Positions 41,020-45,510 of a stretch of 64,000 bases of DNA are shown one piece after another. Source of the stretch: an uncultured Bacteroidales bacterium (GTDB taxonomy: Bacteria > Bacteroidota > Bacteroidia > Bacteroidales > UBA932). Where the stretch lies: positions 1 to 64,000 of the forward strand of contig CAMJKI010000002.1 of NCBI GenBank assembly GCA_946406355.1, read 5' to 3'. The first letter of the stretch is position 1. The number at the start of each line of letters is the position of its first letter. Below the pieces are notes generated by a model. It did not search any database. It had not been told where the DNA came from and saw only the letters and a list, made by a program, of their open reading frames with translations. A program made the translations under genes and the position numbers.

Positions 41020-42057
41020 TTAAAATAGCGTATTGTCTTCGGGATTATACTTACGCTGCACAAGATAGGATTCCAGTCCCAAATGCTTATATGCCAGTTC
41101 GGTTGCCACCCGGCCCCGTTGCGTACGGATTATAAATCCTTCCTTTATGAGGAAAGGTTCATACACCTCTTCCAGGGTTCCACTGTCTTCACTTACAGAA
41201 GTAGCCAGCGTGCCGATGCCCACCGGACCTCCCTTGAAGTTGACGATGAGCGTCCTGAGTATCTTATTGTCTATACCGTCCAGTCCCCGCTTGTCTATCT
41301 TGAGTTTGTTAAGGGCAAAACGCGTGATTTCCAGGTTGATGCGTCCGTCTCCCAGCACCTGGGCAAAATCCCGTACCCGCCTTAGCAGCGCATTGGCTAT
41401 ACGCGCAGTACCCCTGCTCCTGAGAGCAATTTCCATAGCCGCATCCTCATCAATATCCAAAGCCAGTATCTTGGCACTGCGTATTACAATATTCTTCAAA
41501 TCGTTAACATCGTAATACTCCAAGGCACAGGTAATTCCAAAACGGGCCCTGAGCGGGGCAGTTAATAATCCGCTACGGGTAGTTGCACCCACCAGGGTAA
41601 AGGGATTCAAGGCAATTCTCACCGACCTGGCTCCCGGCCCCTTGTCTATCATGATATCTATCACATAGTCCTCCATGGCCGAGTACAGGTACTCTTCCAC
41701 TTCCGGAGAAAGCCGATGGATTTCGTCTATAAAAAGAACGTCTCCCGTTTCCAGCGAGGTGAGCAGTCCGGCCAGATCGCCCGGTTTATCCAGCACCGGC
41801 CCGGAAGTCACCTTCATTTTTACCCCCATCTCGTTGGCAATAATATGAGCCAGGGTGGTTTTACCCAGTCCGGGAGGCCCGTGGAACAGCACATGATCCA
41901 AAGCTTCCTTCCTGAGTTTGGCGGCCTTAATATATATCCTCAGGTTGGATACAATTTCACTCTGTCCGGTGAAGTCGTCCAGTTCCTGCGGCCTTATTAT
42001 TCCGTCAAATTCACTATCTTTGCGGTCTACTGTGCTATGTGGGTCGAATTCGTTCAT
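41020..42057 (-). CDS. ruvB: Holliday junction helicase RuvB
   Basis: [66 protein letters not shown]. Confidence 0.97.
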
Positions 42058-42130
42058 AAAATCAGCGATTCAATTCAAGTACAAATATAGTCTTTTTATT
42101 TTTAAGATTGTTGTTTTTAATAATACGGTT

Positions 42131-42325
42131 AATAAGTTGATAACTTATATTAATTAATTGAAAATCTTTTAATTATATATAGTAAAAGTTTGTTGAAAAC
42201 ATAGAAATTCCGGGTTGATAAACTATGAATAACCGGTCAGGCTAAAACTGTTCTAATTATCAACACACTTATAAACAGGGTTATCAACAGGTTATCAACC
42301 GGCAAAAATGGGAAAATGTTGATAA
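42131..42325. other. oriC: Candidate replication origin: DnaA-box-like array and AT-rich tract
   Basis: Direct repeats TTATCAACA (42257), TTATAAACA (42269), TTATCAACA (42281), TTATCAACC (42292), at 12/12/11-bp steps; inverted copies GTTGATAAA (42214) and TGTTGATAA (42317); ATAAGTT-GAT-AACTTAT (42131-42147); AT-rich DNA 42090-42200. Confidence 0.5.
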
Positions 42326-45300
42326 GTGAAAAATCAACTGAACTGCTAAGGAAGCAAATCCAATCATCGGAGGAATGCTTCTGCAGCGGGCTTTTTTTAT
42401 CGGCCCGCTGGTTTGTGTTTTCCCAGATTGCCAGGGATAATATCCATCTGGTAGTGCTTCCTACCAGGGAAACAGCGGAATATTGCGCTGCCGATTTATA
42501 TAATCTGATAGAAGGGGACCGTATTTTCTTCCTGCCCGAGTCGGGAAAAGGCGTGGAAAGAAGCAATTACAAGTCTTCCCTGGGCGTGCAGCGTACCGCC
42601 GCCATAGGAAAGTTGCTTCAGAAGCAGGAAGATTTATTGGTATTGGTAACTTATCCGTCGGCCCTGGAAGAATACGTTCCGGCTCCGGAAGCACTTAAGG
42701 ATGCTTTATTTACCATCAGGCCCGGAGACCGGCTTCCCTACGCAGAACTTACGGAAAAACTCATTACGGAAAACTTCGAGAAGGTAGATTTTGTTTCCAT
42801 ACCCGGGCAGTTTTCCGTGCGGGGTGCCGTAATAGATATCTTCTCCTATTCAACGGATAAACCCTATCGGCTTTCCTTCTTCGGCAACGAAGTAGAAAAG
42901 ATCCATCTCTTCGACTGCAATACCCAGCTTTCCATAGAAACGGTGGAGCAGGCCGATATTTATCCGGACATTGCATCCAGGGAAACAACTGAAACAGAAG
43001 GAGTAAGCCTGGTAAGCCTTTTACCGGCCAATACGCTGGTGTGGCTGGATTCATCGGATATGTATAAGGGGAGCGCCTTCTTTGACGAACTGCTTTCCAG
43101 AAGGCATGTGTATCTGGATATACCCTTAAACAAAGCCGATGTAAAAGCCGTTCCCTTTTCCATAGCGCCGCAACCCGTTTTCAACAAAAACTTCGAACTC
43201 CTCATTTCCGACATTAAGGAAAAAAAGGAGGATAATTACCAGGTTTTCATTTACGGGGAAAAGGAAAGCCAGCTGGAGCGTCTCCGTTCCATCATGCTGC
43301 AGGACCAGCATGCCCTGATACCGGAGTTCGTAAAGGGAAAGAATATTCATTCCGGCTTTATAGACAAAGACAGCAAAATCTGCTGCTATACCGACCATGA
43401 GATATTCGACCGTTTCCACCGGGTTAGGATGCGCCGTACGGTGGATAAGTCGGAACAACTCACTTTGAATGAGCTGAGCGCCTTTAATTTAGGTGATTAC
43501 ATTGTACATATCGATCATGGTATAGGAGTTTTCGGCGGCCTGGTTAAAATGAAGGACGACCATGGCCGGGTGCACGAGGTTGTTAAGCTGATGTATAACG
43601 GCGGAGACGTAGTGTTTGTTTCCGTCCATTCCCTGCATAAAATTTCCCGCTTCCGTTCCAAGGACGGCGAGCAGCCCCGCATCAACAAGTTGGGATCCAA
43701 GACCTGGGGTGCCATGAAGACGGCAGCCAAGTCCCGGATGAAGGATATAGCCAAGGATCTCATACAATTATATGCCCGCCGACGCGCATCCAAAGGCTTT
43801 GCTTTCTCGGCCGATACCTACCTGCAGGAAGAGCTGGAATCGTCCTTTATGTACGAGGATACGCCCGATCAGGAAAAGGCCACCAGGGCGGTAAAGCAGG
43901 ATATGGAAGATACCTGCCCCATGGACCGGCTCATTTGCGGCGATGTGGGCTTCGGTAAAACGGAAGTGGCCATCCGGGCCGCTTTCAAGGCCGTTTCCGA
44001 TTCCAAGCAGGTGGCAGTACTGGTACCTACCACCATCCTTTCCCTGCAACATTACGAAACCTTCAAGTCCCGCCTGCAGAATTTTCCCTGCACCGTAGAA
44101 TATGTAAGCCGATTAAAGACGGCCAAACAGATTACCGACATCAAGAAACGCCTGAAGGAAGGGAGTATAGACATCCTCATCGGCACGCATAAAATTCTGG
44201 GCGCCGGCTTTGAATTCAAAGATCTGGGACTTCTGGTCATTGACGAAGAGCAGAAATTCGGCGTATCGGCCAAGGAAAAACTGCGGCAGATGAAAAATGC
44301 CGTGGATACCCTTACCCTTACAGCTACCCCCATTCCCCGTACCCTGCAGTTCTCCTTGTTGGGAGCACGGGATCTATCAATTATTAATACACCTCCGCCC
44401 AACCGTATTCCCATCCAGACCGAGATTATCCTTTTCAACGAAGAGGAAATCAAGAGCATCATCAGTTATGAACTCAACCGGGGCGGACAAATCTTCTTCC
44501 TGCACAACAAAGTGGAGGAACTGCCTGCCATTCACGACATTCTGCACCGTCTGGTGCCGGATATGAAAATATGCATAGCCCACGGGCAAATGGAGTCACA
44601 CGACCTGGAAGACCGGATGCTGGCCTTCATGCGGGGCGACTACGACTTGCTGCTGTGCACCACCATCATCGAAAACGGCCTGGATATTCCCAACGCCAAC
44701 ACCATCCTGGTGAACCAGGCCCAGAATATCGGGCTCAGCGACCTGCATCAGCTCAGGGGCCGGGTGGGCCGCTCCAACAAGAAAGCCTTCTGCTACCTGA
44801 TAGTGCCGCCGCTGGCCAGTATTACCGACGATGCCCGCCGCAGGCTCCGCGCCATTGAAGAATTCTCCGACTTGGGAAGCGGCTTCAACATTGCCATGCA
44901 GGACCTGGATATCCGGGGCGCCGGCAACCTCCTGGGCGCCGAGCAAAGCGGTTTCATTGCCGATATGGGCTACGAAACCTATCAGAAGATTCTGTCCGAA
45001 GCCATGGAGGAACTGGGCGTGGAAACCGGTATCAGCGTAAGAAAGAACGAAGAACTGTATGTGGAAGACTGCACCCTGGAAACCGACCAGCCGGCCCATA
45101 TACCCGACGATTATATAGACATAACGGCCGAAAAGATAAGGATCTACAAGCAGCTGGATGCCCTCACCGACGACCGCGAGATAGACCGCCTGGGCAAGCA
45201 GCTGGCCGACCGTTTCGGCCCGCTTCCCAAAGAGGTGGAAAACCTGCTCTATGTGGTTAAAATAAGGAATTTGGGCGTAAAGATGGGATTCGAGAAGATT

Positions 45301-45510
45301 ATCATCAAGAACGGCATGCAAATCATGTTCTTCGTTTCCAATCCCATGTCGGCCTACTACCGTTCCAGCCAGTTCGAAAAGATCCTCAAAAAGGTGGCGG
45401 ACAATCCGTCCATGTACAAGTTCAACCAGGACGGCGGCAAACTCCGCACGGTATCCCGTGGCATTACCAGCCTGGAAGGAGCCCTCTACATTTTGAAAAA
45501 ACTGCAATAA
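42316..45510 (+). CDS. mfd: Transcription-repair coupling factor Mfd
   Basis: GDYIVHIDHGIGVFGGL, DRLICGDVGFGKTEVAIRAAFKA, VIDEEQKFGVSAKEKLR, LTLTATPIPRTLQFSLLGARDLS. Confidence 0.97.
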   Translation: MLISEKSTELLRKQIQSSEECFCSGLFLSARWFVFSQIARDNIHLVVLPTRETAEYCAADLYNLIEGDRIFFLPESGKGVERSNYKSSLGVQRTAAIGKLLQKQEDLLVLVTYPSALEEYVPAPEALKDALFTIRPGDRLPYAELTEKLITENFEKVDFVSIPGQFSVRGAVIDIFSYSTDKPYRLSFFGNEVEKIHLFDCNTQLSIETVEQADIYPDIASRETTETEGVSLVSLLPANTLVWLDSSDMYKGSAFFDELLSRRHVYLDIPLNKADVKAVPFSIAPQPVFNKNFELLISDIKEKKEDNYQVFIYGEKESQLERLRSIMLQDQHALIPEFVKGKNIHSGFIDKDSKICCYTDHEIFDRFHRVRMRRTVDKSEQLTLNELSAFNLGDYIVHIDHGIGVFGGLVKMKDDHGRVHEVVKLMYNGGDVVFVSVHSLHKISRFRSKDGEQPRINKLGSKTWGAMKTAAKSRMKDIAKDLIQLYARRRASKGFAFSADTYLQEELESSFMYEDTPDQEKATRAVKQDMEDTCPMDRLICGDVGFGKTEVAIRAAFKAVSDSKQVAVLVPTTILSLQHYETFKSRLQNFPCTVEYVSRLKTAKQITDIKKRLKEGSIDILIGTHKILGAGFEFKDLGLLVIDEEQKFGVSAKEKLRQMKNAVDTLTLTATPIPRTLQFSLLGARDLSIINTPPPNRIPIQTEIILFNEEEIKSIISYELNRGGQIFFLHNKVEELPAIHDILHRLVPDMKICIAHGQMESHDLEDRMLAFMRGDYDLLLCTTIIENGLDIPNANTILVNQAQNIGLSDLHQLRGRVGRSNKKAFCYLIVPPLASITDDARRRLRAIEEFSDLGSGFNIAMQDLDIRGAGNLLGAEQSGFIADMGYETYQKILSEAMEELGVETGISVRKNEELYVEDCTLETDQPAHIPDDYIDITAEKIRIYKQLDALTDDREIDRLGKQLADRFGPLPKEVENLLYVVKIRNLGVKMGFEKIIIKNGMQIMFFVSNPMSAYYRSSQFEKILKKVADNPSMYKFNQDGGKLRTVSRGITSLEGALYILKKLQ

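Follow-up and report, generated by a model that had tools for sequence, protein, structure and literature searches.

A probable chromosomal replication origin between ruvB and mfd, away from dnaA, in a genus of gut Bacteroidales

ruvB and mfd are separated by a 258-bp gap that we conclude is very probably (about 90%) the chromosomal origin of replication (oriC) of a genus of Bacteroidales, located away from dnaA. The gap lies within a window of 64 kb, the whole stretch of DNA that was analysed, and contains a cluster of predicted DnaA boxes next to A+T-rich DNA. An oriC not adjacent to dnaA had been suggested in an earlier note on this sequence, and it is supported by the uniqueness of the cluster in the genome, by a minimum of helix stability beside it, by the conservation of phased boxes throughout the genus, and by an association between the sequence of the boxes and residue 435 of DnaA. 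The elements of the region are as follows.

41020-42057, minus strand: ruvB, left neighbor, divergent (NCBIfam TIGR00635 and NF000868, above cut-off)
42058-42315, no strand: ruvB-mfd intergenic region, 258 bp from gene calls, proposed oriC
42083-42182, no strand: A+T-rich tract of lowest nearest-neighbor stability, proposed DNA unwinding element
42135-42143, minus strand: DnaA-box-like TTATCAACT, within the A+T-rich tract; at -180/-181 from mfd, common to many genus loci
42191-42199, minus strand: predicted DnaA box TTTTCAACA, bordering the A+T-rich tract on its right; at -125/-126, common to many genus loci
42213-42221, minus strand: DnaA-box-like TTATCAACC
42257-42265, plus strand: predicted DnaA box TTATCAACA
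42269-42277, plus strand: predicted DnaA box TTATAAACA, at the mfd -47 position, box-bearing in many genus loci
42281-42289, plus strand: predicted DnaA box TTATCAACA, at the mfd -35 position
42292-42300, plus strand: predicted DnaA box TTATCAACC, at the mfd -24 position
42317-42325, minus strand: predicted DnaA box TTATCAACA, over the mfd start codon; position box-bearing in 70 of 96 genus loci
42316-45510, plus strand: mfd, right neighbor (NCBIfam TIGR00580, above cut-off)

The four boxes on the plus strand form an array that begins at 42257, 42269, 42281 and 42292, exactly where the earlier note had placed it, with spacings of 12, 12 and 11 bp. Of the two inverted copies described there, that at 42317 covers the mfd ATG at 42316 as stated, while the other begins one base to the left of the position given, at 42213; those at 42191 and 42135 had been missed. 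The description of TTATCAACA as one mismatch from the E. coli box needs a different emphasis, since it is not a poor copy but the regular box of the genus. Within the window there are 22 matches with at most one mismatch to TTATCAACA, where 10.5 are expected, and none of 100 shuffled sequences reaches 22. The densest 250 bp contains ten sites matching TTWTNMACH, clustered in about 200 bp, whereas no other 250-bp segment has more than two.

These ten 9-mers adjoin the least stable DNA in the window. By nearest-neighbor stability the tract at 42083-42182, to the left of the boxes as had been noted, is the weakest of all 63,901 100-bp segments in the 64 kb, and 42139-42188 is the weakest 50 bp. 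The basal unwinding system of the B. subtilis type comprises DnaA boxes, a GC-rich spacer and a DnaA-trio; inspection by eye revealed no clear run of DnaA-trio beside the boxes, with at most three YTD triplets to the left of the box at 42191.

The orientation of the genes changes at the gap from leftward to rightward, in agreement with the earlier note. By gene calls RuvB and, to its left, SdhA and SdhB are encoded leftward, and Mfd is followed rightward by type III pantothenate kinase, BamG and onward to YchF. The named relatives of this Mfd come from uncultured rumen and gut Bacteroidales metagenome-assembled genomes (MAGs), including Candidatus Cryptobacteroides avicola, and the genus of the window is likely, though not certainly, Candidatus Cryptobacteroides.

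The source assembly comprises 2.34 Mb in 135 contigs and is 88% complete, and the genome-wide count of box clusters proposed in the earlier note singles out this locus. There are 36 exact copies of TTATCAACA in the assembly, and the only three falling within 100 bp of each other are in the ruvB-mfd gap. A paired-box pattern, TTATNMACM-(0-30)-TTATNMACM, has three matches assembly-wide, and all three lie in the same gap. We found no second cluster in this 88%-complete assembly that could serve as oriC. The dnaA gene is on another contig (C28:17906-19279), and the boxes around it are weak and scattered.

Cumulative GC skew, another of the checks proposed there, gave a mixed outcome. In two genomes of the genus the raw minimum falls within the ruvB-mfd gap, at 418065 on G013:C1 (over 397 kb) and at 181862 on G017:C58 (200 kb). 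The gap is one of about 48 divergent junctions on the first contig and one of about 24 on the second, and two exact matches among the six contigs tried are unlikely to have arisen by luck. The skew of G033 is also supportive (rank 2 of 241). There is no minimum at the gap in the window itself, the raw skew is flat in G016 and G121, and that of G105 has the opposite sign. When skew at fourfold sites was corrected for gene strand the signal vanished, leaving no consistent replication skew, so that the raw minima are in large part a reflection of gene orientation, and this in turn marks an origin only indirectly. We therefore take GC skew as soft support for oriC and reject it as decisive proof, since there are just two good contigs and the signal fails the gene-strand correction.

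We compared 96 loci from the same genus or close to it having enough sequence upstream of mfd, all in draft assemblies that are mostly or entirely MAGs. In 95 of 95 testable loci ruvB is divergent from mfd, with a median gap of 258 bp; the 96th runs off its contig. At least three boxes are present upstream of mfd in 93 of the 96 (median six), and they recur at set positions relative to mfd: on the minus strand overlapping the ATG at +1 (70 loci) and at about -91, -125 and -180, and on the plus strand at -24, -35 and -47. Between the conserved boxes the spacer sequence diverges freely. In the other Bacteroidales families that we read, mfd has neither ruvB as a neighbor nor a box cluster. The location is thus particular to the genus as sampled, and we reject the idea that Bacteroidales as a whole initiate replication at ruvB-mfd.

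Some box groups were seen elsewhere in those families. Two of them have a phased pair of TTATNAACA boxes beside a dagK-like gene (G059:C4, locus L160; G043:C5, locus L163); in G059 a ParA-family ATPase lies on the other side of the pair, and the layouts in G056 and G060 are similar. We considered the pairs in G059 and G043 as origins of their families and rejected them, as there is no GC-skew minimum there. Groups of three boxes with 12-bp spacing, of sequence TTATCAACA in G058:C24 (L157) and TTATTAACA in G039:C40 (L158), are candidate origins of those families.

Three genomes of the genus (G023, G071 and G218) carry a dispersed hairpin element that separates the array from mfd. The array itself has stayed intact, now 130-150 bp from mfd, and this argues against an mfd operator and favors oriC. 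It bears on the foremost alternative, that DnaA binds the region to regulate mfd and/or ruvB, or is titrated by it, while replication starts elsewhere. DnaA-bound promoters and titration loci occur in other bacteria; moreover the boxes run over the mfd start codon, between two divergent DNA-repair genes, and several genomes show a weak GC skew. Set against this are the persistence of the boxes at a distance from mfd, the standing of ruvB-mfd as the strongest box cluster with no second one in the 88%-complete assembly, its position next to the DNA of lowest stability in the window, and the two raw skew minima within the gap. We regard this alternative as improbable. The inserted element is palindromic, of about 80-119 bp with a hairpin z-score of -8.3 (L016:1372-1490, being G023:C6:37195-37313; also on G071:C31 and G218:C38). 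It has 18-19 matches in G023 and G071 and ten in G218, and none in the genome of the window.

The sequence of the boxes can be set beside that of DnaA. The genus uses the box TTWTCAACA, whose sixth letter is A; the E. coli box demands C there. In E. coli DnaA the bases are contacted by residues 399, 423, 432-435 and 438-439 (PMC5043019). Alignment of domain IV from the window genome's DnaA with that of E. coli (1J1V) places GGKDHATV opposite GGRDHTTV, in which residues 432-435 are R, D, H and T. The equivalent of Thr435 is therefore alanine, as it is in most of the other Bacteroidales families read. In 39 genus genomes with Ala435, origin boxes of the form TTWTNNACA have A, C, T and G at position 6 in 152, 9, 6 and 3 instances, so that A accounts for 152 of 170 (89%). 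In eight genomes with Ser435 the corresponding numbers are 12, 28, 2 and 0. A Fisher test of the two classes gives p = 2.6e-17, but this ignores relatedness and we have not used it.

The first Ser435 clade has boxes TTWTCCACA. A prediction made beforehand, that Ser435 goes with C at position 6, held in seven further genomes, all of one clade. A second advance test failed, in that 16 other Ser435 genomes with a readable origin gave A, T, G and C in 49, 25, 3 and 1 boxes. These include a second clade (L292-L311) in which TTATNTACA boxes accompany a TTTTCAACA box at -24 and occupy fixed positions, about -207 and -57/-68 relative to mfd. In the Ser435 genome G302, C is almost absent from position 6 and there is no gain of pyrimidine. 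The second clade and G302 together rule out the one-residue rule that Ser435 means C at position 6. The tree requires three independent changes from alanine to serine within the genus, and in two of the resulting lineages pyrimidines became commoner at position 6. A rule weakened in this way to any pyrimidine is post hoc, and with three changes, two of them concordant, a sign test cannot reach significance.

A coupling between the box letter and residue 435 is thus suggestive, not proven. As a hypothesis rather than a result, Ala435 may go with A6, and Ser435 may be permissive for a pyrimidine at that position. Which pyrimidine appears might be set by further residues, such as an alanine-to-serine change following L438-H439 in the first clade, or by chance. 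A tentative reading, to which we give slightly less than even weight, is that position 6 is partly set by DnaA 435 and that the change to serine, made three times, was followed in two lineages by rewriting of the boxes, to C in one and T in the other, as stepwise co-evolution of initiator and origin. In two Ala435 genomes, G232 (L255) and G384 (L259), several origin boxes end in CACC or CACT (TTATCCACC, TTTTCCACC), and these are possible intermediates between box types.

Because the box letters change where helix 5 of DnaA has changed, they point to DnaA as the protein that binds. It is correspondingly very unlikely that the cluster is the operator of some other transcription factor with a DnaA-box-like site, for example a DNA-damage regulator of ruvB and mfd. 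Both are DNA-repair genes, and regulator sites too may be phased, but such a factor would not lead us to expect A replaced by C at position 6 in one DnaA-Ser435 clade and T gained in another, nor the canonical TTATCCACA found at the same place in some genus lineages, and paired sites occur nowhere else in the genome, unlike a regulon. A chance run of TTATnAACA-like words in a promoter whose spacer is A+T-rich can be dismissed, as none of the 100 shuffles matches the window count and conservation at recurrent positions in 93 of 96 genus loci already refutes it.

For the ruvB-mfd gap as oriC, we infer that DnaA binds, unwinds the helix and initiates replication there, by a mechanism that would be the same as in other DnaA-dependent origins. 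DnaA-ATP would bind the phased plus-strand array (42257-42300) and the inverted boxes, the TTWTCAACA sequence being read by a DnaA with alanine at the Thr435 equivalent. The bound protein would oligomerize and melt the neighboring A+T-rich DNA (about 42083-42190); the replicative helicase would be loaded there, and forks would depart in both directions.

The gap would supply the origin for a gut genus that is very large, with about 400 species sampled, and for the most part uncultured; the location of the origin is needed for metagenomic estimates of growth rate. Searches using the E. coli box score the boxes of the genus as mismatches. What determines the recognition of DnaA boxes that differ from that of E. 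coli is an open question (PMC5043019), and the natural series of DnaA proteins (Ala435, Ser435) and boxes (TTATCAACA, TTATCCACA, TTATCTACA) makes the determinants testable by one or two substitutions. A full-text literature search for TTATCAACA with 'DnaA box' returned one paper, on a cyanobacterial linear chromosome, and we found no description of the genus origin or of the box shift in the open literature, such absence being weak evidence.

In Bacteroidetes, an oriC located far from dnaA has been reported as the norm (PMC4755523). Chromosome I of Prevotella intermedia likewise has a DnaA-box cluster that is not beside dnaA (PMC4755523; compare DoriC entries). That locus was found using E. 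coli boxes with one mismatch allowed, together with clear GC-skew transitions, whereas the genus studied here has ruvB and mfd as neighbors, the box TTWTCAACA, and a skew that is weak in most members. With E. coli oriC and DnaA domain IV (PDB 1J1V) it shares 9-mers of the TTATNNACA type, an A+T-rich tract on one side and a homologous domain IV. E. coli has the consensus TTATNCACA, with C6 and Thr435, in contrast to A6 and alanine at the 435 equivalent; the C at position 6 that marks an E. coli-type box is thus not the prevailing letter in the Ala435 genomes of the genus. The array in the window also differs from E. coli oriC in its 11-12 bp spacing and single direction. What is variant in this origin is the letter in the box, together with its possible coupling to residue 435 of DnaA. 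There is a parallel in the epsilonproteobacterial origins of H. pylori and A. butzleri, where the lineage-specific letter is T at position 5 and has been tied tentatively to variation in DnaA residues 435 and 438-439 (PMC5043019). In those bacteria it is position 5 that shifts, whereas here it is position 6, and the shift can be traced within one genus.
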